64,000 nt of DNA, taken from Coralliovum pocilloporae. GTDB lineage: Bacteria > Pseudomonadota > Alphaproteobacteria > Rhizobiales > Cohaesibacteraceae. The stretch is from positions 310,001 to 374,000 of the forward strand of contig NZ_CP132542.1 of assembly GCF_030845175.1 (NCBI RefSeq), in the 5' to 3' direction. This document shows, piece after piece, positions 11,941 to 27,593 of the stretch; positions within the stretch are counted from its first letter, which is position 1, and every line of letters starts with the position of its first letter. The position numbers were made by a program, and so were the translations under genes. The notes under the pieces were generated by a model. It was not told the origin of the DNA. It did not search any database and saw only the letters and a list, made by a program, of their open reading frames with translations.

Positions 11941-14607
11941 ATGGAACTTCTCTTTCTTCTCATACTCGTGCTGCTCATGGCAGTGGCACTTGGATCTGGA
12001 TATCCGGTTGCCTTTGCCCTTCCCGGATCCTCAATCATTGCTATCGCCCTGGCTGCTCTGTGTGGCTATCTGTTTGCAGGCGACCCCAGCGCTTACTTCG
12101 CACAGGGCGGTCCCTGGCAATGGCTCAGCGCCGGCGTCACCAACCTGCGCGGAGTTTATTGGGAACCTGAACGGGATACCCTGATTGCCATTCCGCTGTT
12201 TATCTTCATGGGCATCATGCTGCAGCGGTCCAAGATTGCTGAAGATCTGCTGATCACAATGGCTCAGCTCTTCGGCCCTGTTCCGGGTGGTCTCGGTATT
12301 TCCGTGGTCTTTGTGGGCGCACTTCTTGCTGCAACGACCGGCATTGTCGGCGCTACCGTTGTGGCCATGGGCCTGATCTCCCTGCCCGCTATGCTGCGCA
12401 ACAACTATTCCCAGTCGCTGGCAACAGGTACAATCGCGGCCTCAGGCACGCTCGGGCAGATCATTCCGCCATCCATTGTCCTGATTATTCTGGCTGACCA
12501 GCTTTCAAGCGCCGCCGATCAGGCGGGGACCGCCCGTAAGACCCTGTTCAAGGAATCGACCGGCGAGCTGTCCATGCCGTCAATCTTTGACGTTGGCTCC
12601 ACCAGTGCCGGTGAAATGTTCCTTGGTGCTTTCCTGCCGGGTCTTGTGCTTGTCGCGCTCTATATGATCTACATTCTGGTCTATGCCTATATGAAGCCGG
12701 ACAAGGCTCCGCCGGTCCCCTATGAAGGCAAATATGACCGGGCATTTATCACCAAGGTCTTCCTGACCCTGTTCCCGCCGCTGACACTCATCTTCCTCGT
12801 GCTTGGCTCGATCATTGCCGGTATCGCGACAGTGAATCAGGCCGGTGCCATTGGTGCAGGCGGCGCGCTGATCATGGCAGGCTACCGACTCAGAGAAGGC
12901 CACAAGCGGGCCTACTGGCCAGCCCTGATTGCCATCTTCTCTCTCATCGCAATCGCCTTTGTGCTGTCATTCTTCAACACCAACGTCAAAGCCATCAATA
13001 CGGATAGTGATCGTCTCGGCATCGCACTCGCAACACTGGCGGTTATCGGCCTGACAGTTGCCCTTGCATGGAGCGGCTGGCGTGCCCTGAAGATTGAGGA
13101 CACCCTGCGCGGCGTAATGGTGGAAACCGCCAAGACCACCGCTCTGGTGTTCATCATCCTGCTCGGTGCTGCCATTCTGACAGCGGCCTTCCGTGCCTTT
13201 GGTGGAGAGCATCTTGTGAAGGAGTTCCTCAACGGCCTGCCAGGCGGGTTCTGGACCAAGTTTGTCATCGTCATGGCCGTGATCTTCATCCTCGGCTTCT
13301 TCCTCGACTTTATCGAGATTGCCGTTGTGGTCGTGCCCATCGTGGCACCGATCCTGCTGGCTGACCCCGGCGCAAACATCACAGCTGTCTGGCTTGGTGT
13401 GATGATCGGTCTCAACATCCAGACCTCCTTCCTCACACCACCTTTCGGCTTTGCCCTCTTCTATCTGCGCGGAGTTGCACCTGCCACGGTCAAAACACTC
13501 CAGATCTACAAGGGTGTGATTGTTTTCATCGGCCTGCAGCTTGCGGCTCTGGCCATCGTTGGCGCCCTGCCGCAACTGGTGAATTATCTGCCGAACCGCG
13601 TCGCGTTTCTTTCAGATACGGCACCGCCACCGCGCAATCCGCGCCTCACCTACTGCATTGACCGCTATGTGACAGAAGAAGTCACACGCAATGGTGTTGC
13701 AATCGCTCAGGCTGTTCTCAATGCCAAGGCTATCAACATCGATGCTCTGCCGCGTAAGCTGTCATCAGACGCGACAAAGAGCTTTGATAATGTGGCCAAG
13801 GCTATTGATCTCCTGAAACAGGCAAACGAGGCCGAGAAGCGGATTGAGGAAGCATCTGTCGCGTTCAGACCACTTCATACCGAGGTTCGGGCCATTGAAG
13901 CGGATATCCGCAAGATCCGGAAAGAGATCAAGGACTACGATACCCGTATCAGCCGCCTGAACGATCCGTCCGAGCTTGACGCTCGCAAGAAGCTGGAAGC
14001 GCGTGTTGAAGTTCTGAATGCGGAAATCAACGCTCTTGAGCAGACCATTCCATCCGGATGGGATGCGGCTTACGCCAAGTTCAATGAACTGAAGAAAGCG
14101 GAAACAGATCTCCGTCGCGCCTATATGCGGGCTTCAACGCAGGCCTACGAGCCTGTTGGGGAACTGCTGGCAGTGATCGACAGTTCAGATGCCTTCCGGG
14201 CTCTGGAAGCCGATCTGAAGGCCGTCAAGGGTCAGCTAGATGCAGCAACGGCTGACAATCTGGCGAACCTGGTTCCGGTCTTCAAAGAGCTTGAGCGCAA
14301 GGTACGCGATGTTGAAGGCACATCCGACATCAAGTCGGCTCTGTCCAAAGCCAGACGCGCTGTCCGTGCCCGCAAGCCGGATCAGGAAAAAGCGGTCAAG
14401 GAGTTCGATAAGGCCCTCAAGCTTTACGCTGAACAACTGGACTGGCGTGGCAAGGCTGAAGCGGACATTGCACCGGGCCTTCGCCAGTATGAAGCCGCTA
14501 TCCGGGAGACAATCGGTATTCGGCAGCAGCAGAAAATGACAAAGGACCAGGCTCTCTATGTTGCCGCCTGTGCCTCTGATCACCGCGATATCTCGCTGCA
14601 CTTCTGA
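11941..14607 (+). CDS. TRAP transporter large permease (DctM) with long C-terminal extension
   Basis: An 888-residue protein. Residues 1 to about 553 are a hydrophobic DctM permease (usual length 420-450, here with extra loops), with IPLFIFMGIMLQRS, ATTGIVGATVVAMGLISLPA and GQIIPPSIVLIIL. It carries out sodium-coupled substrate translocation. From about residue 560 a hydrophilic tail of about 330 residues rich in Glu, Lys, Arg and Ala follows, with heptad-like patterns (about 600-740) that suggest coiled coils. The tail has no membrane segment, so it lies on one side of the membrane. I do not recognise its function. The reading frame is continuous, so this is a fused domain, not a frameshift artefact. 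Confidence 0.9.
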   Translation: MELLFLLILVLLMAVALGSGYPVAFALPGSSIIAIALAALCGYLFAGDPSAYFAQGGPWQWLSAGVTNLRGVYWEPERDTLIAIPLFIFMGIMLQRSKIAEDLLITMAQLFGPVPGGLGISVVFVGALLAATTGIVGATVVAMGLISLPAMLRNNYSQSLATGTIAASGTLGQIIPPSIVLIILADQLSSAADQAGTARKTLFKESTGELSMPSIFDVGSTSAGEMFLGAFLPGLVLVALYMIYILVYAYMKPDKAPPVPYEGKYDRAFITKVFLTLFPPLTLIFLVLGSIIAGIATVNQAGAIGAGGALIMAGYRLREGHKRAYWPALIAIFSLIAIAFVLSFFNTNVKAINTDSDRLGIALATLAVIGLTVALAWSGWRALKIEDTLRGVMVETAKTTALVFIILLGAAILTAAFRAFGGEHLVKEFLNGLPGGFWTKFVIVMAVIFILGFFLDFIEIAVVVVPIVAPILLADPGANITAVWLGVMIGLNIQTSFLTPPFGFALFYLRGVAPATVKTLQIYKGVIVFIGLQLAALAIVGALPQLVNYLPNRVAFLSDTAPPPRNPRLTYCIDRYVTEEVTRNGVAIAQAVLNAKAINIDALPRKLSSDATKSFDNVAKAIDLLKQANEAEKRIEEASVAFRPLHTEVRAIEADIRKIRKEIKDYDTRISRLNDPSELDARKKLEARVEVLNAEINALEQTIPSGWDAAYAKFNELKKAETDLRRAYMRASTQAYEPVGELLAVIDSSDAFRALEADLKAVKGQLDAATADNLANLVPVFKELERKVRDVEGTSDIKSALSKARRAVRARKPDQEKAVKEFDKALKLYAEQLDWRGKAEADIAPGLRQYEAAIRETIGIRQQQKMTKDQALYVAACASDHRDISLHF

Positions 14608-15934: not shown

Positions 15935-16723
15935 TCAGCGTCCCTTCCAGACAGGGTCGCGCTTTTCTGCAAAGGCCCGGGCTCCCTCAAGCTGGTCCTC
16001 GCTGGCATAGAGTGTCTGAATGGACGCAAATTCACGCCGATTCATCTTGTTCATGGATTCCTGGAAACTCATGGTTTCAGACGCCCGAACCACTTCCTTG
16101 ATTGCCGCATAGACAAGAGGCGGTCCGCTGGCCAGAAGTTCCGCCATATCCAGAGCTGCATCCATCAGCTCAGCCGCCGGTACAATCCGGTTTACAAAGC
16201 CCCATCGGTGCGCTTCCTCGGCGTCAAGGCGTCGGCCGGTAAACAGCATCTCCATAGCGATATGATAAGGAATACGCTTTGGCAGCTTGGCGGTTGCCGC
16301 ATCAGCAATCGTTCCTGAGCGAATTTCAGGCAAGGCAAATGTGGCATGATCAGCAGCAATAATGATGTCTGCACTGAGCGCCAGTTCAAAACCGCCTCCA
16401 AAGGCAATCCCGTTCACCGCTGCAATAACCGGTTTGCCAAGATTGGGCAGCTCCTGAAGACCACCAAAGCCGCCTTCACCATAATCCGCATCCGGTTCTT
16501 CCCCTTCAGCTGCCGCCTTCAGGTCCCAACCCGGGCAGAAGAATTTCTCTCCGCCGCCGGTGATGATGGCAACACGCAGGTTCGGATCATCACGAAACTC
16601 CACAAACGCCTTGCTCATGACACGGCTGGTTGCCGCATCAATGGCATTCGCCTTGGGGCGATCAAGGGTCACGATAAAGATAGCGCCTTTGCGTTCTACC
16701 CGGATCGGGCTTGCCTCTGACAT
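15935..16723 (-). CDS. caiD: CaiD-like carnitinyl-CoA dehydratase (crotonase family)
   Basis: A 262-residue crotonase-fold protein. It resembles E. coli CaiD closely in several places: LDRPKANAIDA, PGWDLKAAAEGE followed by PDADYGEGGF, and the C-terminal FAEKRDPVWKGR. The two catalytic glutamates of CaiD are matched by Glu113 (FGGGFELAL) and Glu133 (FALPEI). CaiD interconverts crotonobetainyl-CoA and L-carnitinyl-CoA. It is the last gene of a four-gene operon with an acyl-CoA ligase, dehydrogenase and SDR. Substrate could be another betaine-type or short acyl-CoA. AGAGGA precedes ATG 16723. Confidence 0.85.
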   Translation of the reverse strand: MSEASPIRVERKGAIFIVTLDRPKANAIDAATSRVMSKAFVEFRDDPNLRVAIITGGGEKFFCPGWDLKAAAEGEEPDADYGEGGFGGLQELPNLGKPVIAAVNGIAFGGGFELALSADIIIAADHATFALPEIRSGTIADAATAKLPKRIPYHIAMEMLFTGRRLDAEEAHRWGFVNRIVPAAELMDAALDMAELLASGPPLVYAAIKEVVRASETMSFQESMNKMNRREFASIQTLYASEDQLEGARAFAEKRDPVWKGR

Positions 16724-16748
16724 CAGATTATTCCTCTCAAAGCTTCAA

Positions 16749-18845
16749 TCACGTCTGAATGCGCCGGATAACCGCATCCACAGCAACTGCCCCCTCACCT
16801 TTCGGGCGCAGCATGACAGGGTTCACATCAAGCTCCAGCAGCCCGTCACCCTCTTCCATCGCATAGTGCACGACTGCGAGAACAAGGTCAGCGGCGGCTT
16901 CAAGGTCTGCCGGAGCAGCACCACGATAGCCTGTCAGAAGCGCCGCTGTCTTCAGAGACAGTAATGCCTCTATAATCTCTTCCCGTGTAGTCGGCAGAAG
17001 AAGGGTCGCGCTGTCTTTCAGCAAATCGACAAGGACACCACCCGCCCCGAGCACCAGATGCAGGCCAAACTGTTCATCACGGTTGATACCGACAAGGATT
17101 TCAGCGACGGTCCCCGTCACCATGGCTTCGACCATAAATCGATCAGACAGATGGGCCATGGAGTTATAAGCAGCTCGCACCTCGTCGTCGGTCTGCAGAC
17201 CAACAGCCACGCCGCCAACATCACTCTTGTGGGCAAGGGTGTCGCTGACAACCTTCAGCACCACCGGCAATCCAAGTGCGCAAGCCGCGTTGACCGCATC
17301 ATCCTCAGACGTGACCAGCTGGCGATCCGGCACAGGCAGGCCATAGCCAGAAAGAACCGCCTTGGCAGCATCCTCATCAAGACTGACAATGGTCGCAATG
17401 TCATCAACACCGCCAGCACCAATGCAACGCAAGGATTCTCCAGGCTGTCGCCTGAACGCAGCCCCTATCTCTGCCGCAGCTTCAATCGCATCATAAGCGT
17501 CATCAATCCCGACCATCGGCACCAGGCCAAGGCGGCAGAGTTCAGCGGCACGGTCTTCTGACAGGTTTTCCTGCAATGTCGCCAGAACAGCGGCTTTGGC
17601 ACCTGTCACATGACTGGCTTCGGCCAGAGCATTCACCGCGGCCTGCCAGGCCTCATCACCGCAACGATCAGTTCTTGGGAAATCCAGAACCAGGATGGAC
17701 AGGTCAAACCCGTTTGACAGCATGGCCGTAAAGGTCGCCGTCAACTTCTCCTGATCGCCCCAGATGAAGGTGTGATAATCAAGCGGGTTGGCAACGGCAA
17801 CAATCTCGTTCAGCGTGTCCTTGACCCTGCCCCTTTCATCCTCCGCAAGAGCGCGGAAAAAGACAGCCCGCCCTTCCGCACTGTCAGCCATCAGACTGGC
17901 CTCACCGCCTGAACAGCTCATGGATGTGATAGATGTCCCATCCAGCGGACCAAGCACATGCAGCAGTTTCAATGTCTCAAGGAAGGAGGGCAGTGAATAG
18001 ACACGAGCGGCCCCCAGGCGGCGCAGAAACGCATTTGTCAGAGAATCAGATCCGGCCAGGGAGGCTGTGTGGGAGATGGTCAGGGCCTGCGCGGCTTCAG
18101 ACCGACCTATTTTAAGCACAACGACCGGAATATTCTTCTCCCGAGCCTTGAGGACCGTGGCCTCAAAAGCAGCGATATCGTCAATACCCTCGATATGAAG
18201 ACCAAGCACCGTCACGCGCGGATCATCAAGGGCGGCAGATGCCAGTTCAGAAAGCCCGCATTGTGCCTGATTGCCCGCAGTCAACACATAGGCAACCGGC
18301 AACCCACGCGCCTGCATGGTCAGATTAATCGCAATATTGGAGGATTGCGTCAGGATGGCCACACCCGTCTCAACCGCAGCACCACCATGCTGGTCCGGCC
18401 AGAGCAAGGCACCATCCATATAGTTGATACAGCCGTAGCAGTTGGGCCCGAGGATCGCCATGGGCCCGGCAGCCTCTATAAGCTGCTCCTGGAGGTCGGC
18501 ACCATCATCAACTTCTCCAACCGCTTCCTTGAACCCCGACGCATAACAGACAGCACCACCAGCCCCGGCTTCAGACAATTGCCGAACCAGATCAATGGTC
18601 AGATAGCGATTCACGCCGAGAAAGGCTGCATCCGGCGCTGATGGCAGATCAGCAACTGACGCAAAGCATGGATACCCTTCCACAAGCGTCTTCTTTGGGT
18701 GAACCGGCCAGATCTGTCCCCGATATCCCATACGCTTGCATTGCCGAATGGCCTCGGCGGCTTCATTGCCACCAAAAAAGGCGATGGATCTTGGCCTCAG
18801 CAGTCGGCCAAGCCCCTCTCGAAACGATCGCGCCGCCATCAGCAT
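16749..18845 (-). CDS. Acyl-CoA synthetase, NDP(ADP)-forming type
   Basis: A 698-residue single-chain ADP-forming acyl-CoA ligase. An N-terminal Rossmann CoA-binding domain (about 10-140, LLRPRSIAFFGGNEAAEA) is followed by two succinyl-CoA-ligase-like flavodoxin domains with the phospho-histidine site ISHTASLAGSD, then a C-terminal ATP-grasp domain (about 470-698, LPVVLKVVSDTLAHKSDVGG). It makes acyl-CoA + ADP + Pi from acid, CoA and ATP. The start codon overlaps the acyl-CoA dehydrogenase stop (TGATG), indicating translational coupling. In this operon it is the likely activating enzyme, taking the place that CaiC or CaiB fills in E. coli; that is inference. Confidence 0.92.
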   Translation of the reverse strand: MLMAARSFREGLGRLLRPRSIAFFGGNEAAEAIRQCKRMGYRGQIWPVHPKKTLVEGYPCFASVADLPSAPDAAFLGVNRYLTIDLVRQLSEAGAGGAVCYASGFKEAVGEVDDGADLQEQLIEAAGPMAILGPNCYGCINYMDGALLWPDQHGGAAVETGVAILTQSSNIAINLTMQARGLPVAYVLTAGNQAQCGLSELASAALDDPRVTVLGLHIEGIDDIAAFEATVLKAREKNIPVVVLKIGRSEAAQALTISHTASLAGSDSLTNAFLRRLGAARVYSLPSFLETLKLLHVLGPLDGTSITSMSCSGGEASLMADSAEGRAVFFRALAEDERGRVKDTLNEIVAVANPLDYHTFIWGDQEKLTATFTAMLSNGFDLSILVLDFPRTDRCGDEAWQAAVNALAEASHVTGAKAAVLATLQENLSEDRAAELCRLGLVPMVGIDDAYDAIEAAAEIGAAFRRQPGESLRCIGAGGVDDIATIVSLDEDAAKAVLSGYGLPVPDRQLVTSEDDAVNAACALGLPVVLKVVSDTLAHKSDVGGVAVGLQTDDEVRAAYNSMAHLSDRFMVEAMVTGTVAEILVGINRDEQFGLHLVLGAGGVLVDLLKDSATLLLPTTREEIIEALLSLKTAALLTGYRGAAPADLEAAADLVLAVVHYAMEEGDGLLELDVNPVMLRPKGEGAVAVDAVIRRIQT

Positions 18846-20005
18846 CAGGCCCCCAGCGGACGCAGCAAATCGCGGCTGATAATGTGACGCTGAATTTCGG
18901 ATGTGCCATCCCAGATCCGTTCCACACGGGCGTCCCGCCAGAACCGCTCAAGCGGGAAGTCATCCATCAACCCCATGCCGCCATAGATCTGGATCGCCTC
19001 ATCCGTCACCCGTGCCAGCATTTCCGTGGCATAGACCTTGGCAGACGCGATTTCACGATTGGCAGGCAGCTCCTGATCAAGACGCCATGCAGCAGCCAGT
19101 GTCAGATAGTCAGCCGCATCAATCTCGGTAATCATGTCTGCAAGCTTGAAGGAAATGCCCTGAAACTTGCCAATCGGCTGACCAAACTGCTTCCGCTCCG
19201 CTGCATAGTTCAACGCATAGTCAAAGGCCCGGCGGGCACGGCCAACACTCATCGCAGCCACAGTAATCCGCGTTGCGTAGAGCCACTCATTCATCACGGC
19301 AAAACCACCATCAACCTCACCCAGAACCTGGGCATCCGGCAGACGGCAATCATCGAAATTCAGAACGTAGTTGAGATACCCACGATGAGAAACCGACTTG
19401 TAACCGTGCACCACCTCAAAGCCGGGCGTGCCACGGTCGACAAGGAATGTGGTGATCCGTTTTTTCGGCCCACGGGGCGTATCGTCCTCACCGGTTGCAA
19501 CAAAAACGATAAAGAAATCCGCGTGTTCAGCACCGGAAATGAAATGCTTGGTACCGTTCAGAACCCAATCACCACCATCACGACGGGCGGTGCACTTCAT
19601 GCTGCGCACGTCCGAGCCGGCATCAGGCTCGGTCATCGCCAGAGCATCCATCTTCTCACCACGTACAGCCGGGAAAAGATAACGTTCACGCTGCTCGTCA
19701 TTACAGGCCATCAGAATATTCTGTGGTCGTCCCCAGAAATGGTTGAGCGCCATGGACGCCCGACCAAGCTCACGCTCCAGCAACGCAAACTCCAGATGGT
19801 TGAGACCGCCGCCGCCAACCTCTTCGGGGAAGTTCGGCGCATAAAAGCCAAGATCCAGCACCTTTTGCTTCAGTTCCTGGCCAAGCTCTTCCGGCACCCG
19901 ACCAAGACGGTCGACTTCTGCTTCATGCGGATAAATTTCATTTTCAACGAAGGAGCGGACCGTCTCGACGATCATCTCCTGTTCCTGAGTCAAACCGAAA
20001 TGCAT
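18845..20005 (-). CDS. Acyl-CoA dehydrogenase family protein
   Basis: A 386-residue FAD enzyme of typical length that introduces an alpha,beta double bond (or reduces one) in an acyl-CoA. Visible family features are AMTEPDAGSD near the flavin, FISGAEHADFF, AERKQFGQPIGKFQ, and IQIYGGMGLMDDFPLERFWR then DGTSEIQR at the end. The position that carries the catalytic Glu in medium-chain enzymes (YEGTS) reads WDGTS, so the base may be Asp or lie elsewhere, as in several subfamilies. It could act on a betainyl-CoA in the manner of CaiA or butyrobetainyl-CoA dehydrogenase. Coupled to the ligase gene by a one-base overlap. Confidence 0.92.
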   Translation of the reverse strand: MHFGLTQEQEMIVETVRSFVENEIYPHEAEVDRLGRVPEELGQELKQKVLDLGFYAPNFPEEVGGGGLNHLEFALLERELGRASMALNHFWGRPQNILMACNDEQRERYLFPAVRGEKMDALAMTEPDAGSDVRSMKCTARRDGGDWVLNGTKHFISGAEHADFFIVFVATGEDDTPRGPKKRITTFLVDRGTPGFEVVHGYKSVSHRGYLNYVLNFDDCRLPDAQVLGEVDGGFAVMNEWLYATRITVAAMSVGRARRAFDYALNYAAERKQFGQPIGKFQGISFKLADMITEIDAADYLTLAAAWRLDQELPANREIASAKVYATEMLARVTDEAIQIYGGMGLMDDFPLERFWRDARVERIWDGTSEIQRHIISRDLLRPLGA

Positions 20006-20032
20006 GGTGCACCTCTTTCAGAACAGCGGTTG

Positions 20033-20800
20033 CTAGTTGATCGATTCCGTATGACCATCAACGGTCAGGGCCTGGCCGGAGATCATCTTCCCGGCAGGCG
20101 ATGTGATAAACAGGATCATCTCTGCCAGATCATCGGCACTGACAAAGGACTTGAGAGATGTTCCTGCTGTATAACTGGCCCGGATTTCCTCTTCAGACCG
20201 ACCGGTCGCTCTGGCATCTGCCGCAATAACCCGGTCCATCCGGTCTCCACTGACAGCACCCGGGCAGATGACATTGACCCGGACATTCGAACTCCCCAGT
20301 TCCATGGCCATGGACTTGGTCAGACCGATGACACCCCATTTGGCGGCAGCATATGGCGTGCGGTTCGGATAACCATAGAGCCCGGCGGTGGACGAAAAAT
20401 TCACGATCGACCCGCTCTTCTGTGCCTTCATCAGAGGAATGGCTTTGCGGCTGCACAGAAAAGTTCCATCCAGCGTGACCGAGATACAGGCCTTCCACGC
20501 ATCAAGAGAGAGGTCTTCAAGCGGACCCGTCGGCCCGCCGATACCAGCCGTATTGACCAGGATGTCGATGCCCCCGAGGCGGTCCAGAGCCTGTGCGAAT
20601 AACTGATCAACCTGGCTTTCGTCGGTCACATCAGCCGCACAGCCGCCAGCAAGCCCCTCTGCTTCAACCGCTTGTGCAACGGTCTCATCATTAACATCGC
20701 AGATGAAGACCTGATCGCCGCGTTCTCTCAGACGCTGAGCCACCGTGCGTCCGATTCCGTTACCGCCTGCAGTGACAACAACACGTAAACTGTCGGCCAT
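20033..20800 (-). CDS. Short-chain dehydrogenase/reductase (SDR)
   Basis: A 255-residue classical SDR with N-terminal nucleotide motif TAGGNGIGR, the NTAGIGG strand, catalytic Ser in NFSSTAGLYG, and the YAAAK active-site Tyr/Lys. The C-terminal AGKMISGQALTVDGH is typical. It would oxidise or reduce a hydroxyl with NAD(P). First gene of the four-gene acyl-CoA operon; ATG 20800 has a strong GGGAGGA upstream, and the longer frame to 20830 lacks such a site. Its substrate in the pathway is unknown; a 3-hydroxy acid is plausible. Confidence 0.92.
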   Translation of the reverse strand: MADSLRVVVTAGGNGIGRTVAQRLRERGDQVFICDVNDETVAQAVEAEGLAGGCAADVTDESQVDQLFAQALDRLGGIDILVNTAGIGGPTGPLEDLSLDAWKACISVTLDGTFLCSRKAIPLMKAQKSGSIVNFSSTAGLYGYPNRTPYAAAKWGVIGLTKSMAMELGSSNVRVNVICPGAVSGDRMDRVIAADARATGRSEEEIRASYTAGTSLKSFVSADDLAEMILFITSPAGKMISGQALTVDGHTESIN

Positions 20801-20913
20801 ACTCGTCCTCCCAAACCCGCAGGCTTCCAAACATTATCGAAAGGCTATCGACATTTGCCGGAGTGATAAATACATTTTTCGACAGAGTTGATACGGTTTC
20901 CGAGGTATTTTTG
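20801..20913. promoter_or_regulatory. Divergent control region, SDR operon and GlxA-type regulator
   Basis: A 113-base gap holding both start regions. GlxA-type AraC proteins usually bind their own divergent promoters, so this is the expected operator site. No unambiguous operator was identified by eye. Confidence 0.4.
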
Positions 20914-21849
20914 ATGCATATGGCCTTCGTCCTGTTTGATCATTTCAGCGGCCTGTGTCTCTCCAACGCTCTGGAGCCACTTCGTGCTGCCAATATGAAA
21001 TCGGGGCGCGACCTGTATTCCTGGTCACTGGCCAGTCCGGACGGGAAACCTGCCGTGACCTCAAGCCAGTTACAGATCAACGCTGATTTCTCCATTGATA
21101 CACTGCCGAGGCCCGATATTCTCTTTGTCATGCCGAGCTACCATTACACCCAGCATGAAACGCCCGCCGTCCTCCGTTCCCTGCGCCAATGGGCTCAGGC
21201 CGGACTGACTCTGGGTGGTCTTGATTCCGGTAGTCATCTGCTCGCGAGAGCCGGATTACTGGATGGATATCGCGCAACGATACACTGGGAAGAACTCGGC
21301 ATCTTTGAAGAGCGATTCCTGAACGTGACTGTTGTCGCCGACCGCTTCGTCATTGACAGAAATCGCATCACCGCTGGTGGTGGAACCACAACACTGGACC
21401 TGATGTTGCATCTGATCAGACGCGACCACGGGGAAACGCTGGCCAATGATGTGGCAGGCACTTTTATCTATGACCATGAACGCGCATCCGGCGACCCGCA
21501 ATGGTCCAATCCGGGTGGCATTCATGCAAAACGCTATCCCAAGCTGGCCCGCGCTCTGACCATCATGTCAGGCTCTCTGGAAGAGCCTGTCGCCATTGGT
21601 GAGCTGGCTCGCAAGACCGGGATGAGCCAGAGAGACCTGGAGCGATTGTTCAAAAAGGTTCTCTCCACCAGTCCGAATGCCTACTATCAGCATCTCCGCC
21701 TGGCCAAAGCCCGCAGTCTGCTGATGGAAACGGCGCTGACCGTTGCAGAGATCGCAGCACGCACCGGGTATACATCCGGCAGCGCCTTCTCTCGAGCCTT
21801 CCGCTCCCATTTTGGCCACGCCCCCGGCAAGCTGCGCCAGATGCGATAA
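20914..21849 (+). CDS. GlxA-family AraC-type transcriptional regulator
   Basis: A 311-residue activator. The N-terminal DJ-1/PfpI-like domain (about 1-190, LDSGSHLLARAGLLDGYRAT then HWEELG and GGTTTLDLMLHLI) senses a ligand. The C-terminal double helix-turn-helix of AraC type (about 215-310) contains ARKTGMSQRDLERLFKKVL and AEIAARTGYTSGSAFSRAF. Regulators of this architecture include CdhR and GbdR, which control carnitine and glycine betaine catabolism, fitting the CaiD-like operon next door. ATG 20914 follows GAGG by eight bases; GTG 20863 is an alternative. Confidence 0.9.
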   Translation: MHMAFVLFDHFSGLCLSNALEPLRAANMKSGRDLYSWSLASPDGKPAVTSSQLQINADFSIDTLPRPDILFVMPSYHYTQHETPAVLRSLRQWAQAGLTLGGLDSGSHLLARAGLLDGYRATIHWEELGIFEERFLNVTVVADRFVIDRNRITAGGGTTTLDLMLHLIRRDHGETLANDVAGTFIYDHERASGDPQWSNPGGIHAKRYPKLARALTIMSGSLEEPVAIGELARKTGMSQRDLERLFKKVLSTSPNAYYQHLRLAKARSLLMETALTVAEIAARTGYTSGSAFSRAFRSHFGHAPGKLRQMR

Positions 21850-21898: not shown

Positions 21899-23560
21899 TC
21901 AGTTGCCAGCTGACTCCATGCCACCCTTCTGCTTCCGCTCTTCCAGCAGCTTGTCGAGCCAGTCCGGATCCATCTCCGGCACTGATGACAACAGAAGTTC
22001 CGTATATTCATGATGCGGCGGAATGAACATCTGGCTCTTTGGTCCGTGTTCAACCACCCGTCCCTGCAACATGACAACCACTTCATCGGCGATGGAGCGG
22101 ACCGTCGCAAGGTCATGCGTGATGAACATGTAAGCCAGATCAAACTCGCTCTGCAGTTTGTCGAGCAGGCGCAGAATACCTTCCGCCACCAGCTGATCTA
22201 GCGCAGACGTCACCTCATCACAGATGATGAATTCAGGCTCGGCGGCAAGAGCGCGCGCGATACAGATACGCTGCTTCTGGCCGCCCGAAAGCTCACCCGG
22301 CAGCCGGTCAATGAACTGATCCGGCTCAAGCTCAATCATGTCGAGAAGCCCGCGGATACGCTCTTCCTTCTTTTTGCCTTTCATGCCGAGATAGAATTCT
22401 AGCGGCCTGCCGATCACATCCCTGATCCGCTGCTTCGGATTAAGGGCTGTATCCGCCATCTGATAAATCATCTGGACACGCCGCAGCAGATCCTTGGACC
22501 TGCTGCGATAATCCGCAGGAAGGATCTCGCCGTTAAACAGAACCTCCCCTTGCCGTGGAGGCAGGAGGCCGGTCACACAACGGGCTGTGGTTGACTTGCC
22601 TGAACCGGATTCACCCACAACAGCAACAGTTCTGCCACGATGGATCTTGAACGACACATCATGCAGAACCGGCACATTGCCATAGGCTGCCGTTACATTG
22701 CGGATTTCGACAACTGGCGTTTCACTCTCAGGGGCCGATGGTTTTTCAGCTCGTTGAAACTCGCGCACCGCCCACAGGGACTTGGTATAGTCTTGCTGCG
22801 GCGAAGACAGCATGGTCCGCGTGTCAGCCTCTTCCACCTCATTGCCATAGCGCAGAACCTTGATCTTGTCAGCCATCTGCGCCACGACCGCCAGATCGTG
22901 CGTGATGTAGATCGCGGCTGTGTTGAACTGCTCAACAATATCCCGGATGGCTGACAGCACCTCAATCTGCGTTGTCACATCCAGCGCGGTAGTCGGCTCA
23001 TCAAAGATGATCAGATCCGGACGGCAGGACATGGCCATGGCCGTCATCGCACGCTGCAACTGACCACCGGAGACCTGGTGCGGATAACGGAAACCGATCT
23101 CCTCAGGGTTCGGCAATCGCATGCGCCGATACAATTCCACCGCATCCTCAGACGCTGTTTCAGCCGACAGAATACCATGCTGAACCGGTGCTTCATTATA
23201 CTGATCGATGAGCTTGTGAGCCGGATTGAATGACGCAGCCGCTGACTGGGCCACATAGGCAATCCGGGCACCGCGAAGTTCCCGCTTGTGGCCTTCACTG
23301 GCTGTCACCAGATCCACACCATCAAACATCACCGAGCCGCCATTGATCCGGCAACCGCCTTTGGTATAGCCCATGGCTGCCAGACCGATTGTGGACTTAC
23401 CCGCCCCGGATTCCCCGATCAGGCCCAGCACCTCGCCCTTGTGGAGTTTCAGATCCACGCCATGAACAATGCCATGCCATTTTTCGTCGGAATATCCCTC
23501 AATCTTCAAGCCTTTGATGTCGAGGAGTACTTCTCCAGAGGTCACAGATGTCTCTTTCAT
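21899..23560 (-). CDS. Peptide-type ABC transporter, fused double ATPase (DppD-DppF)
   Basis: A 553-residue protein with two complete nucleotide-binding domains. Domain 1 has GESGAGKST, VSGGQLQRAMTA and LIIFDEPTTALD. Domain 2 has GESGSGKST, LSGGQKQRICIARAL and FIICDEVTSALD. Each domain resembles DppD or DppF of the dipeptide/oligopeptide/nickel family; in many alphaproteobacteria they are fused. It drives import through the two permeases encoded just upstream (stop of dppC-type gene five bases before). Last gene of the transporter operon. Confidence 0.95.
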   Translation of the reverse strand: MKETSVTSGEVLLDIKGLKIEGYSDEKWHGIVHGVDLKLHKGEVLGLIGESGAGKSTIGLAAMGYTKGGCRINGGSVMFDGVDLVTASEGHKRELRGARIAYVAQSAAASFNPAHKLIDQYNEAPVQHGILSAETASEDAVELYRRMRLPNPEEIGFRYPHQVSGGQLQRAMTAMAMSCRPDLIIFDEPTTALDVTTQIEVLSAIRDIVEQFNTAAIYITHDLAVVAQMADKIKVLRYGNEVEEADTRTMLSSPQQDYTKSLWAVREFQRAEKPSAPESETPVVEIRNVTAAYGNVPVLHDVSFKIHRGRTVAVVGESGSGKSTTARCVTGLLPPRQGEVLFNGEILPADYRSRSKDLLRRVQMIYQMADTALNPKQRIRDVIGRPLEFYLGMKGKKKEERIRGLLDMIELEPDQFIDRLPGELSGGQKQRICIARALAAEPEFIICDEVTSALDQLVAEGILRLLDKLQSEFDLAYMFITHDLATVRSIADEVVVMLQGRVVEHGPKSQMFIPPHHEYTELLLSSVPEMDPDWLDKLLEERKQKGGMESAGN

Positions 23561-23564
23561 CTTC

Positions 23565-24461
23565 CTACTCCTTCAGACCGCTTGAACGATGCAGCATCCA
23601 GTCAACCACGAAGTTGACGGCAACTGTCAGCAGGGCAATAGCACCGGCGGGCAGAAGCGGCGTCAGACCAAGCGTGATGTCATCAGCAGCAAAGGTGATC
23701 AGGGTTGCGTTGTCACGCACCATGGATCCCCAGTCAGCCGTTGGAGGCTGAATGCCAAGACCAAGGAAGGACAGGGCAGCGATAAACAGGAAGACGAAGC
23801 AGAAGCGCAGGCCGAATTCCGCAATCAATGGAGCCATGGAGTTTGGCAGGATTTCATGCCGGATAAGCCACCAGAGCCCCTCTCCGCGCAGCTTGGCTGC
23901 CTCGATGTAATCCATCACCACGATATTGCCGGCAACAGCGCGGGTCAGGCGATAGACACGGGTCGAGTCCAGAACTGCAATCACCAGGATCAGAACGATC
24001 ATCTTCATCTGTCCGTCACTGATGATGAAAAGACCAACATCGACCGCACCCACCTTGGAGAAAATCGTCAGCAGCAGCAGAGCAAAAATCAGAGATGGGA
24101 TCGACATCAGAACATCGACAATCCGGCTGAAGAACTGATCAAGCCAGCCACCCAGCGTAGCCGCCAGCAGGCCCATCAATCCGCCAAGAACAAAGGCGAT
24201 TACGGTTGTTGCCAGAGCAATACCCACTGTGTTCCGAGCACCATAAATCAGTCGGGACAGCATATCCCGGCCAAGATTGTCCGTGCCGAGGAAAAACTCG
24301 CCAAACCAGAGATCATATTCCGGACCAACAATTTCCGTCTCACCGTGCGGTGCCAGAATTGGCGCAAAAAGCGAAACCAGAATATAGGACAGGATCACGA
24401 TCATGCCGAACCAGGCGCTGAGCGGAGCTGTTTTCAAACCTTTCCAGAGGTCTGTCATCAT
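23565..24461 (-). CDS. Peptide-type ABC transporter permease (DppC family)
   Basis: A 298-residue inner-membrane permease with about six helices. The N-terminal cytoplasmic piece contains the OppC_N-like segment APLSAWFGMIVILSYILVSL, and the EAA loop that contacts the ATPase reads AAKLRGEGLWWLIRHEILPN. Pairs with the DppB-type permease; the two genes are 15 bases apart. Confidence 0.94.
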   Translation of the reverse strand: MMTDLWKGLKTAPLSAWFGMIVILSYILVSLFAPILAPHGETEIVGPEYDLWFGEFFLGTDNLGRDMLSRLIYGARNTVGIALATTVIAFVLGGLMGLLAATLGGWLDQFFSRIVDVLMSIPSLIFALLLLTIFSKVGAVDVGLFIISDGQMKMIVLILVIAVLDSTRVYRLTRAVAGNIVVMDYIEAAKLRGEGLWWLIRHEILPNSMAPLIAEFGLRFCFVFLFIAALSFLGLGIQPPTADWGSMVRDNATLITFAADDITLGLTPLLPAGAIALLTVAVNFVVDWMLHRSSGLKE

Positions 24462-24476
24462 AAGTTTCCCCTCCCC

Positions 24477-25433
24477 TTAGCGCGGATGCAGCAAGCGTGG
24501 ATTGCTGAGAATTGACAGGATATCGGCTGTCAGGTTCAGCAGGATATAGGTTGCTGCGAAAATCAGACAGGCTGCCTGCACAACGGTGATGTCACGCTTG
24601 GCGACCGAATCCACCAGCAACTGCCCCAGGCCCGGATAGACAAAGACCACTTCAACAACCACAACACCCACAATGAGATAGGCAAGGTTCAGTGCAATCA
24701 CGTTGATGATCGGCGCCAGTGCATTTGGCAAGGCGTGTTTGACGATTACCCGTGACTTGGAAAGCCCCTTCAGATGAGCCATCTCGATATAGGGGGATGC
24801 CAGAAGGTTGATAATAGCCGCTCGCGTCATGCGCATCATATGCGCGATCACCACAAGCGTCAGCGTCAGGGCTGGCAGGAAGGACTTGTACATCCGTTCC
24901 AGGAATGGCGTACCCGCATCCACATTCGAGATCGGCGGGAACCAGCCAAGCTGAACCGACAGGAACAGGATAAGGATATAGGCAACAAAGAACTCAGGAA
25001 ATGAAATCGATGTCAGCGTCGACACATTGATTGCACGGTCAAACAGTGAATTCCTGTAAAGCGCCGCCAGAACACCAAGCGCAATGGCAAGCGGTACGGC
25101 GATAACTGCTGCAAAAGCAGCCAGGAACAGCGTATTGCCAAGCCGGGAACCGATCAGTTCCGAAATTTCCCGCTGGTTAGCCAGGGATTTGCCGAAGTCC
25201 CCCTGAAGCACGCCACCAAGCCAACTGAAATAGCGCGTGAAAGCAGGCTGATCGAGACCAAGCTCCCGACGGAAAGCAGCAACTGTTTCTTCCGTTGCAG
25301 CCTGACCGAGAATTTCCTGTGCAAGATCACCTGGAAGAAGTTCAACGGCGGAAAAGATAATAACAGAGACGACAAAGAGCGTCAGAAGCCCCAGCCCCAA
25401 ACGCTGAAAGACCATGCGTAGAATAGGATGCAT
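24477..25433 (-). CDS. Peptide-type ABC transporter permease (DppB family)
   Basis: A 318-residue membrane protein. It begins with the DppB-type MHPILRMVFQRLGLGLLTLF and LLPGDLAQEILG, and has the EAA loop MAHLKGLSKSRVIVKHALPN. It forms the channel with the DppC-type subunit. A strong hairpin precedes it, so its expression may be lower than that of the binding protein. Confidence 0.94.
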   Translation of the reverse strand: MHPILRMVFQRLGLGLLTLFVVSVIIFSAVELLPGDLAQEILGQAATEETVAAFRRELGLDQPAFTRYFSWLGGVLQGDFGKSLANQREISELIGSRLGNTLFLAAFAAVIAVPLAIALGVLAALYRNSLFDRAINVSTLTSISFPEFFVAYILILFLSVQLGWFPPISNVDAGTPFLERMYKSFLPALTLTLVVIAHMMRMTRAAIINLLASPYIEMAHLKGLSKSRVIVKHALPNALAPIINVIALNLAYLIVGVVVVEVVFVYPGLGQLLVDSVAKRDITVVQAACLIFAATYILLNLTADILSILSNPRLLHPR

Positions 25434-25461
25434 ATCCGGACCCCAAAACCGAGTTCAATGA

Positions 25462-25494
25462 CAAAAAAGCTGGGGAAGATTGACTTCCCCAGCT
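25462..25494 (-). terminator. Intercistronic terminator after the ABC binding-protein gene
   Basis: On the minus strand GAGCTGGGGAAG pairs with CTTCCCCAGC and is followed by a run of six T. It lies 18 bases after the binding-protein stop and before the permease gene. Partial read-through would favour the periplasmic receptor over the membrane parts. Confidence 0.85.
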
Positions 25495-25511
25495 CGGTAT
25501 CGGTTCAGGTC

Positions 25512-27095
25512 TTAGGAATCGAACCACCAACGCTCAAGGGCCTTGTTGCCATCAAGATCCCAGTTGGAAGCGAACTTGTCATGGCCGACATTTGCAGCTG
25601 TCGCGAAGACATAGCTTGCATACATCGGAACAACCGTACCACCATCATTGCTGCAGAGTTCCTGCATTTCGTAATACATGGCACGACGCGTATCTTCGTT
25701 AAGCTCTGCACGAGCCTGAACAAGAAGTTCGTTGAAACGCTCGTTTTCCCAATGGGTATCGTTCCAGGCAGCGCCCTTGGAATAGGCAATTGAGAACATC
25801 CAGTCCTCTGTCGGACGGCCACCCCAATAACAGAAGCACCAGGGCTTCTTCAGCCAGACGTTGGACCAGTATCCATCATTCGGCTCACGGATGACGTTGA
25901 TATTGATACCGGCCTTTGCTGCATGCTCTTTGTAGAGAACAGCGGCATCAACAGCTCCGGCAAAGGCTGCATCTGCAGACGACAGGTCCACATTGATGCT
26001 GTCAACACCAGCTTTCTTCAGGTGATACCTCGCCTTTTCAGGATCATAGGCGCGCTGCGGCAGATCCTTGTTGAAATATTTGTTGGCCGGGCTGATCGGA
26101 TGGTCGTTGGCAACCTGACCATATCCGCGCAGCACTGTTTTCACGATAGCTTCACGGTCAATCGAATATTTCAGAGCCTGACGGACATTCACGTCATTGA
26201 ACGGCGCAACATCCACGTGCATCGGAATGGTGTAATGCTGTGTTCCGGTTACCTGATGCACATTCAGTTTGCGATTGCGCTTGAGCAGGTGAACCGTTTT
26301 CAGATCACAGCGGTCCATAGCGTGGATCTCGCCGGACGTCAGGGCATTGGTCCGGGCCGCCACATCCTTAATTGAGAGAACTTCGATGGAATCAAAGTGA
26401 GCCCGCTCATCGCCACGCCAGTAGTTACCAAACTTCTTAAAGGTGGCTTTCACACCTGGCTCAAAGCTCTCGAGAACGTATCCGCCCGTTCCAATCCCTT
26501 CCTGCCATTTGCCGTCAGGCATAATTGACAGATGGTAATCAGAAATGATGTACGGGAAATCGGCATTGCCTTCTTTCAGCTCAAAGACAATCGTGTGGTC
26601 ATCGTCTTTCTTGATTTCGACAACCGGGTCCAGAACGCTTTTCGCCGCTGACTTCGAATCGTCACCGCGATGGTGATTCATGGATGCGATGACATCATCT
26701 GCCGTCATCGTCTTGCCATTGTGGAACTCAACGCCCTTGCGGAGTTTCACAGTCCAAGTCTTGGCGTCAGCGGATGCCTCTACGCTCTCGGCCAGGTTAG
26801 GAACAGCATTGCCCTCATTGTCCACATCAACGAGACAGTTACGGGTCGCATAGTTCACCTGCTGGGGGAACGTATTGTCGATCGCGCCCGGATCCAGGGA
26901 TTCCGTTGTGCTGCCGCTGCCGATACCGATCTTGAAATGCCCGCCTTTTTTCGGGGCAGCCTTTGCAGGGCTTGTCAGAAGTGCTGACGCAGCGCTTGCA
27001 GTGATCCCGACAGCAGCCGCACCCGCCATGAAATCACGACGGCTGAGATGGCCTGACAGAACCAGATCACGCATTTTATTGAGCTCATTTGACAT
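25512..27095 (-). CDS. Peptide-type ABC transporter substrate-binding protein
   Basis: A family 5 (DppA/OppA type) periplasmic receptor of 527 residues. A Tat-type signal with SRRDFMAGAAAVG and cleavage near SPAKA is clear. The SBP_bac_5 signature region includes WTVKLRKGVEFHNGKTMTAD. Family members bind peptides, nickel, opines and other amines. The neighbourhood with a CaiD-like acyl-CoA operon leaves a small zwitterion possible. GGAGGAAAG lies nine bases before ATG 27095. Confidence 0.94.
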   Translation of the reverse strand: MSNELNKMRDLVLSGHLSRRDFMAGAAAVGITASAASALLTSPAKAAPKKGGHFKIGIGSGSTTESLDPGAIDNTFPQQVNYATRNCLVDVDNEGNAVPNLAESVEASADAKTWTVKLRKGVEFHNGKTMTADDVIASMNHHRGDDSKSAAKSVLDPVVEIKKDDDHTIVFELKEGNADFPYIISDYHLSIMPDGKWQEGIGTGGYVLESFEPGVKATFKKFGNYWRGDERAHFDSIEVLSIKDVAARTNALTSGEIHAMDRCDLKTVHLLKRNRKLNVHQVTGTQHYTIPMHVDVAPFNDVNVRQALKYSIDREAIVKTVLRGYGQVANDHPISPANKYFNKDLPQRAYDPEKARYHLKKAGVDSINVDLSSADAAFAGAVDAAVLYKEHAAKAGININVIREPNDGYWSNVWLKKPWCFCYWGGRPTEDWMFSIAYSKGAAWNDTHWENERFNELLVQARAELNEDTRRAMYYEMQELCSNDGGTVVPMYASYVFATAANVGHDKFASNWDLDGNKALERWWFDS

Positions 27096-27593
27096 TATGA
27101 GTCTTTCCTCCCTAGTCAAAGTTAAAGAATTGCCGCGTTAGTCGGCTATTCCCGATTTGTCACACGGACATATGACAGCTTGATAATGTGGGCCCTCGCA
27201 TTGTCATTTTGATGCAAGACCTCCTCCCAGAGGTATGCCCGACATTGATCTGTTGAGTGGTATTACAGAACGAAGCGTCTGAACAATCAACCACTTTGGC
27301 GTTTTTACACAGCCTCATTCAGAAAGTCTAAAGGTCCAAACACAGGCATTATTAACACGAAACGACATCAATATTGCCAAAATCACCTCAAGACCCAAAA
27401 AATCCGATCAATTTTACCGGACATGCAGCCCAGTGAATTCAGCATCCATGGGAAAAATGAAGGTGATAACAGCGATTTGACCAGCGACTTGCACAGTTTT
27501 TGCGAAGCATTTCATATTGCTGGTACACTCACCGAATAGAAATCAGATTAATGTGTTAACAACAATATACACTGGAACCGGGAGAACATTACG
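27096..27593. other. 498-base divergent intergenic region
   Basis: Lies between the binding-protein gene and the cytochrome c' gene. It is AT-richer than its surroundings and contains no plausible coding frame with a ribosome-binding site. It must hold the promoters of both operons. No repeat or RNA structure stood out. Confidence 0.5.
27489..27517 (+). promoter_or_regulatory. Candidate promoter of cytochrome c' operon
   Basis: TTGCAC and TCATAT are separated by 17 bases, about 75 bases before the cytochrome c' start. This fits a housekeeping-type promoter but is only a by-eye match. Confidence 0.3.

Follow-up and report, generated by a model that had tools for sequence, protein, structure and literature searches.

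In Sinorhizobium meliloti, gamma-butyrobetaine is reportedly converted to glycine betaine in seven steps by five enzymes, as Bazire et al. are said to have described in 2019. The enzyme that cleaves 3-dehydrocarnitine is BKACE. According to excerpts of two papers, S. meliloti BcoAB is a gamma-butyrobetaine:coenzyme A (CoA) ligase that made gamma-butyrobetainyl-CoA in vitro from ATP, CoA and gamma-butyrobetaine (PMC8364193), and the carnitine-oxidising SM2011_c01638 also turns betainyl-CoA into glycine betaine (PMC12482172, citing Bazire 2019). Here, we analyzed an operon of Coralliovum pocilloporae (assembly GCF_030845175.1) located in a stretch of 64,000 nucleotides (contig NZ_CP132542.1, positions 310,001 to 374,000), hereafter the window. 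It encodes a CaiD-like hydratase (HYD), a fused ADP-forming acyl-CoA ligase (LIG), an acyl-CoA dehydrogenase (ACD) and an SDR-type dehydrogenase (SDR), and we consider it highly likely to represent the upper half of a Sinorhizobium-type catabolic route for gamma-butyrobetaine. The bacterium thus very probably feeds on gamma-butyrobetaine, with CoA attached by an ADP-forming enzyme.

Gene arrangement and genomic context

The initial annotation had described an SDR, an acyl-CoA dehydrogenase, an ADP-forming ligase and a CaiD-like hydratase opposite a GbdR-like regulator (REG), and all five genes were found where it had placed them, in agreement with the domain scans (Table 1). We read HYD, LIG, ACD and SDR as one operon because the genes are so tightly spaced, with 25 nt between HYD and LIG, a 1-nt overlap between LIG and ACD and 27 nt between ACD and SDR. 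REG is divergent from SDR, and the genes of an Opp/Dpp-type ABC transporter (21899-27119) lie beyond REG. The SDR start was taken to be the ATG at 20800, whereas the mechanically called open reading frame (ORF) begins at a TTG at 20830.

Table 1. Features of the operon, the adjacent transporter and a dioxygenase gene near the distant carnitine genes; positions refer to the window unless prefixed by G000:C1 (the genome of C. pocilloporae) or by a locus identifier.
Feature	Position	Strand	Comment
CaiD-like hydratase (HYD)	15935-16723	-	Predicted reaction crotonobetainyl-CoA to L-carnitinyl-CoA
Fused ADP-forming acyl-CoA ligase, alpha+beta (LIG)	16749-18845	-	ATP + CoA + gamma-butyrobetaine (predicted substrate)
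Acyl-CoA dehydrogenase (ACD)	18845-20005	-	Pfam; predicted reaction gamma-butyrobetainyl-CoA to crotonobetainyl-CoA
SDR dehydrogenase, accessory (SDR)	20033-20800	-	Pfam/NCBIfam SDR; putative D-carnitine dehydrogenase
Divergent promoter region	20801-20862	.	Direct repeat TCGATA-N5-TCGATA at 20835-20851
GlxA/AraC regulator, GbdR/CdhR type (REG)	20863-21849	+	GbdR model, DJ-1/PfpI + HTH_18
Opp/Dpp-type ABC transporter, two fused ATPase domains (DPPDF)	21899-23560	-	Pfam ABC_tran twice + oligo_HPY
ABC transporter permease (DPPC)	23565-24461	-	Homologue in 42/80 named ligase loci
ABC transporter permease (DPPB)	24477-25433	-	Homologue in 42/80 named ligase loci
Substrate-binding protein with Tat signal (DPPA)	25512-27119	-	SBP_bac_5, TAT_signal_seq; homologue in 40/80 named ligase loci
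Dioxygenase near carnitine genes	G000:C1:6772-7854 (TIGR02409 match); L065 6718-7884		Read as TmpA (2-trimethylaminoethylphosphonate dioxygenase)

In the proposed route, the ABC transporter would import a trimethylammonium acid, and LIG would use ATP and a phosphohistidine relay to couple gamma-butyrobetaine to CoA, yielding ADP and phosphate. ACD would oxidise gamma-butyrobetainyl-CoA to crotonobetainyl-CoA, which HYD would hydrate to L-carnitinyl-CoA, and free carnitine would then be released. The lower half would be encoded at a distant locus (G000:C1, approximately 1.7-4.2 kb), where carnitine 3-dehydrogenase (LCDH), whose S. meliloti counterpart is reportedly a betainyl-CoA hydrolase as well, would serve as the dehydrogenase and BKACE would cleave 3-dehydrocarnitine with acetyl-CoA, with glycine betaine as the end product. 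The GbdR-type REG would control the divergent operon.

We searched for homologues of the operon genes in 385 genomes of the class and 20 genomes of the family. LIG was identified in 35 class genomes (E <= 1e-120) and in 3 family genomes (E <= 1e-100), own genome included in both cases. ACD (E <= 1e-120) was present in 39 class genomes, including 33 of the 34 other LIG-carrying genomes, and five genomes contained ACD without LIG. A first round of neighbourhood analysis covered 20 loci, two from family relatives and 18 from the best class hits. LIG was accompanied by ACD in 19 of these and by HYD in all 20; one locus was cut by a contig end. Clustering of the neighbouring proteins recovered REG at 13 loci, a 492-aa family at nine and a 299-aa family at seven. 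A member of the 492-aa family was identified as LCDH by NCBIfam (739.7 bits, cut-off 592), and a member of the 299-aa family was of the BKACE type, its best model being the 3-keto-5-aminohexanoate cleavage enzyme (262 bits, below the cut-off of 382). Among 11 more distant LIG neighbourhoods (L073-L083), seven contained ACD together with a HYD/CaiD match (only 28% identity for the hydratase match in L081), L076 contained HYD alone, L083 ACD alone and L077 and L078 neither; LCDH matches were found in five. Together, the two rounds covered the class LIG loci of all but five genomes, one of which (G398) was seen in part (L201).

A scan of named genomes yielded at least 571 stretches encoding a ligase relative, not all of them orthologues, and the neighbourhoods of the best 80 were queried with the window and carnitine sequences only. 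By their titles, these 80 loci belong mostly to Rhizobium, Mesorhizobium, Phyllobacterium, Aminobacter, Shinella and other Hyphomicrobiales, with a minority from Paracoccaceae/Roseobacter-type bacteria, Kiloniella, Rhodoferax/Comamonadaceae and gammaproteobacteria, several of the last being metagenome-assembled genomes. Homologues of HYD were found at 78 loci, ACD at 74, LCDH at 68, BKACE at 65, REG at 62 (>=30% identity) and the transporter ATPase at 42. ACD, LIG and HYD were consecutive at 72 of the 80 loci (within 500 nt at 67), an arrangement that goes beyond chance, and the six-gene order REG-BKACE-LCDH-ACD-LIG-HYD was observed at 59.

The association with LCDH was also evident from co-occurrence. 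LCDH (E <= 1e-100) was identified in 51 of the 385 class genomes, in 26 of them above the curated cut-off. With the own genome left out, it was present in 28 of 34 genomes with LIG as compared to 22 of 350 without (Fisher p 3e-23, uncorrected for relatedness), and 16 of the 19 LIG-bearing families included a genome with both genes. When only LCDH matches above the cut-off were counted, the numbers were 15 of 34 versus 10 of 350 (p 1e-11).

The C. pocilloporae genome itself contains LCDH at G000:C1:1673-3151 (799.8 bits, cut-off 592), and BKACE (58% identity) adjoins it at G000:C1:3259-4149, next to a second GbdR-like regulator. Both of these genes of the Sinorhizobium-type pathway are present in the genome, outside the window. 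The link to carnitine and butyrobetaine that the initial annotation had proposed for the operon is borne out by the LCDH and BKACE neighbours and by co-occurrence. What needed correcting is the type of route, which by gene content is the Sinorhizobium type from gamma-butyrobetaine via L-carnitine to glycine betaine and no variant of CaiABCD; ACD is only 32% identical to CaiA. No CaiB or CaiC is encoded by the window operon; genome-wide, CaiC gave no match above its cut-off (best 188.9 bits, cut-off 651), and CaiB was not included in the genome-wide search.

A gamma-butyrobetaine dioxygenase was considered as a second route and rejected. The candidate gene scored 418.2 bits with TIGR02409 (cut-off 414.75) but 557 bits with the TmpA model (cut-off 400), and was read as TmpA because the latter score is by far the better; a side activity on gamma-butyrobetaine is conceivable. 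TIGR02409 does not fully separate gamma-butyrobetaine dioxygenase from TmpA, as one gene passes both cut-offs. The class-wide count for this model (64 of 385 genomes, 12 above the cut-off) was left unused as a test of the dioxygenase route because of this overlap.

The ligase, dehydrogenase and hydratase

The domains of LIG (Pfam CoA_binding_2, Succ_CoA_lig and ATP-grasp_5) correspond to those of ADP-forming acyl-CoA synthetases in a single chain, confirming the ligase class named in the initial annotation. In an alignment of the window ligase with those of 35 loci (36 rows), the alpha histidine H259 was present in all rows and the beta histidine H539 in 35; the remaining row is an alpha-only ORF, and an HK motif is present in its beta ORF. 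H259 aligns with the swinging-loop histidine of DddX, an ATP-dependent lyase of dimethylsulfoniopropionate (DMSP). Both histidines expected of the superfamily, the phosphohistidine in the swinging loop of alpha and the histidine of beta, are present in LIG. In DddX, according to parts of PMC8163506, the sulfonium group is held by cation-pi interactions with Trp391 and Phe435. These residues align to H358 and A402 of LIG, close to Y357, W362 and W400, which are conserved in 34, 36 and 31 of the 36 rows, respectively. An aromatic pocket in LIG is plausible from this pattern, though it would not match DddX column for column. The proposed lyase base of DddX, Glu432, aligns to Ala399 of LIG; this column says nothing about lyase activity, since 18 of the 36 rows carry Asp or Glu there. 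A second ADP-forming ligase homologue (27% identity, 928-aa frame) was observed in the own genome at G000:C1:2518414-2520417 (L002).

The initial annotation had suggested that carnitine, butyrobetaine or a related acid might be activated by a different chemistry. The contrast with E. coli holds, in that the ligase belongs to the ADP-forming enzymes. The chemistry is not of a new kind, because BcoAB has already been used as a gamma-butyrobetaine:CoA ligase, according to the excerpts of PMC8364193, and an orthologous ligase occupies the same place in the S. meliloti operon. As for the acid, carnitine needs no activation in this route, and gamma-butyrobetaine is the likely substrate. ADP-forming activation would then be a widespread solution among Alphaproteobacteria, to judge from the class-wide presence of LIG, with the window as one case, and many genes labelled just 'acetate--CoA ligase family protein' would gain a suggested function. 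If this holds, the fused LIG would also offer a way to explain in structural terms how an ADP-forming ligase accepts quaternary ammonium acids.

ACD was 79% identical to its S. meliloti homologue and 84% identical to the neighbour of the ligase in Ruegeria pomeroyi. In strain DSS-3 of the latter, the ligase is SPO_RS21275 and the dehydrogenase SPO_RS21280. Site 366, which we take to be the catalytic base site of the acyl-CoA dehydrogenase family, was acidic in all 97 aligned rows (Asp in 60, Glu in 37), whereas CaiA has a Gly there. The CaiA model gave only 193 bits (cut-off 540), which together with the low identity argues against orthology.

The best NCBIfam model of HYD was CaiD (NF002936, 345 bits), followed by a model with 248 bits, and HYD was 58% identical to E. 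coli CaiD. The curated cut-off of the CaiD model is 500 bits; the orthologue in S. meliloti (310) and that in R. pomeroyi (327) also stay below it, whereas E. coli CaiD reaches 563. CaiD and all 101 aligned rows have both crotonase glutamates, E113 and E133. Thus, HYD looks like CaiD in function, although it falls outside the cut-off of that equivalog.

Several observations weigh against the proposed gamma-butyrobetaine route. The window operon itself lacks LCDH and BKACE, which are located approximately 325 kb away, and HYD scores below the CaiD cut-off. Six of the 35 LIG-carrying genomes have no LCDH match (G079, G167, G178, G212, G280 and G357), although G212 is only 64% complete. Some ligase homologues with approximately 42-44% identity lack the other enzymes alongside (L077 and L078 have neither ACD nor HYD, L076 no ACD), as does a 35% identical homologue without HYD (L083), so that the ligase family is wider than the butyrobetaine function. 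Finally, we infer from name, position and domains that BcoAB corresponds to the two ligase ORFs of S. meliloti Ak57 and forms ADP. No statement that BcoAB is ADP-forming was found in the literature passages searched, which did not include the primary characterisation paper.

The same enzymes could be used with a different entry point, such that LIG activates crotonobetaine, SDR handles D-carnitine and ACD is a side branch. The chemistry of ACD, LIG and HYD is compatible with either entry point, and of the 61 SDR hits in the class, 10 had LCDH or LIG at a distance of up to 12 kb, with LCDH as the immediate neighbour in seven cases. However, a route from crotonobetaine only would not need ACD, which nevertheless accompanies LIG in nearly all class genomes, and BcoAB works on gamma-butyrobetaine in the excerpts cited above; we therefore regard this entry as unlikely. 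It is still less likely that the substrate is an unrelated short acid, such as DMSP, acrylate or 3-hydroxypropionate, a reading suggested by the resemblance of the ligase to DddX and 3-hydroxypropionate-CoA ligase. The nearest solved relatives of LIG are 3-hydroxypropionate-CoA ligase, 4-hydroxybutyrate-CoA ligase and DddX (the latter with only 182 bits), and ACD scores best with the NCBIfam model of acryloyl-CoA reductase, but the NCBIfam matches fall far short of the curated cut-offs (244 versus 1300 bits for 3-hydroxypropionate-CoA ligase on LIG, 301 versus 640 bits for ACD), and the conserved neighbours found are carnitine enzymes, DMSP and acrylate genes not being part of the search. A reductive system like CaiABCD, in which carnitine or crotonobetaine is reduced to gamma-butyrobetaine, agrees with the similarity of HYD to CaiD and is the least credible of all, given the divergence of ACD from CaiA, its acidic residue at site 366, the failure of CaiC to reach its cut-off in a genome-wide search that left out CaiB, and the LCDH and BKACE context.

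Regulator, SDR and transporter

GbdR was the best model for REG, with 280 bits and thus below the cut-off of 480, and the combination of DJ-1/PfpI and HTH_18 domains fits this type of regulator. The repeat TCGATA-N5-TCGATA between SDR and REG was the only match in the window when up to one mismatch was allowed, as compared to 0.10 expected; 9 of 100 shuffles reached one match. TCGATA elements were also found upstream in two family relatives (L034 and L035), and the repeat may serve as an operator. A comparison of 7-mers shared upstream of 74 operons gave no single clear, nameable operator box.

SDR was ruled out as a core gene of the pathway, since a homologue (>=40% identity over 200 residues) was found at only one of the 80 named ligase loci. 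The homologues that recur near LCDH and LIG in the class genomes nevertheless connect SDR with carnitine metabolism. Ten further stretches with SDR homologues displayed mixed neighbours: L207 has the gene beside a BKACE homologue, L201 near a ligase and ACD, and L203 and L204 together with a butyrobetaine-dioxygenase/TmpA-like gene and homologues of the window transporter. In the other six, the neighbours matched none of the window or carnitine queries, except that an ATPase in L208 matched weakly (26%). By eye, L203 and L204 also contain genes for a HAD-type hydrolase-like protein and a choline-dehydrogenase-like oxidoreductase. A D-carnitine dehydrogenase has been reported for Acinetobacter, according to excerpts of PMC5979481, and guided by this enzyme our guess is that SDR might have the same role. 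More broadly, SDR could be a dedicated enzyme of the carnitine pathway outside the scheme reported for S. meliloti, either a D-carnitine dehydrogenase or an oxidoreductase acting on carnitinyl-CoA before hydrolysis, but we consider this doubtful. In the first case, the same operon would take in D-carnitine via 3-dehydrocarnitine; in the second, the route would fork here from the known one.

The transporter, too, is connected with carnitine metabolism by the repeated proximity of the genes. DPPDF homologues (>=45% identity, median 57%) were identified at 42 of the 80 named ligase loci, and three or all four transporter parts were likewise present at 42. At L067, the genes for BKACE, DPPB, DPPC, DPPDF, DPPA and LCDH are consecutive, with 58-77% identity for the four transporter proteins. 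The nearest solved relatives of DPPA are nickel- and dipeptide-binding proteins, so that its ligand can be inferred from the gene context alone, according to which the transporter probably imports the pathway substrate. Prb of S. meliloti is an Opp-like transporter of proline betaine. The genes SMc01642/3/4 are called proline-betaine transport genes in the part of PMC3596328 consulted, and in R. pomeroyi a carnitine transporter, cntTUVW (SPO2995-2998), was found via mutants, according to excerpts of PMC10130141.

Elsewhere in the window, at 11941-14607, a TRAP large permease (DctM) was observed, the frame of which (888 aa in total) continues into an extended C-terminal region that weakly matches SMC/Rad50. 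DctM proteins do not usually carry an extension of this kind.

Comparison with described systems

The closest counterpart is the locus of S. meliloti Ak57 (CP090106.1), which contains an SDR, a GlxA regulator, BKACE, LCDH, ACD, an unlisted stretch, caiD and an ABC transporter; Rhizobium leguminosarum WSM1325 carries the same operon, and the route is widespread among the relatives of S. meliloti. Ak57 and the window share ACD, LIG and HYD in the same order (79% identity for ACD and 73% for HYD), and an Opp-type transporter, LCDH, BKACE and a GlxA regulator are also present. The unlisted stretch consists of two overlapping ORFs of 480 and 228 aa in different frames (L104 11355-13417), which correspond to LIG residues 12-444 (60% identity) and 486-693 (43% identity), respectively. 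Three close Sinorhizobium records retain this stretch at 95% DNA identity, and the two examined have a single ORF of 714 aa, so that the split in Ak57 may be a recent state of a fused gene or a frameshift in one record. All genes are located together in Ak57, whereas in C. pocilloporae the ligase is fused, SDR heads the operon and LCDH and BKACE are encoded far from it, together with a regulator of their own. The SDR near the Ak57 locus is just 35% identical to that of the window. On the megaplasmid of R. pomeroyi DSS-3, a DJ-1/PfpI family gene was observed between the ligase and the hydratase (L105 13260-13865).

The remaining systems share individual features with the window operon. DddX belongs to the same ADP-forming superfamily with a phosphohistidine, acts on an onium acid and has the NPLD motif in common, but also cleaves the CoA ester that it has formed, according to the parts of PMC8163506 consulted. 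The bbu cluster of Emergencia timonensis also starts from gamma-butyrobetainyl-CoA and includes an enzyme of the acyl-CoA dehydrogenase family, but is described in excerpts of PMC8364193 as anaerobic, with class III CoA transferases and elimination of trimethylamine. The E. coli caiTABCDE system resembles the operon in its CaiD-like hydratase and CoA-bound trimethylammonium intermediates, and differs in the class of the ligase, the distant relationship of ACD to CaiA and the LCDH and BKACE context. Thus, the system in C. pocilloporae is a Sinorhizobium-type route in which the ligase is fused, the genes are divided between two loci and an SDR is present in addition.

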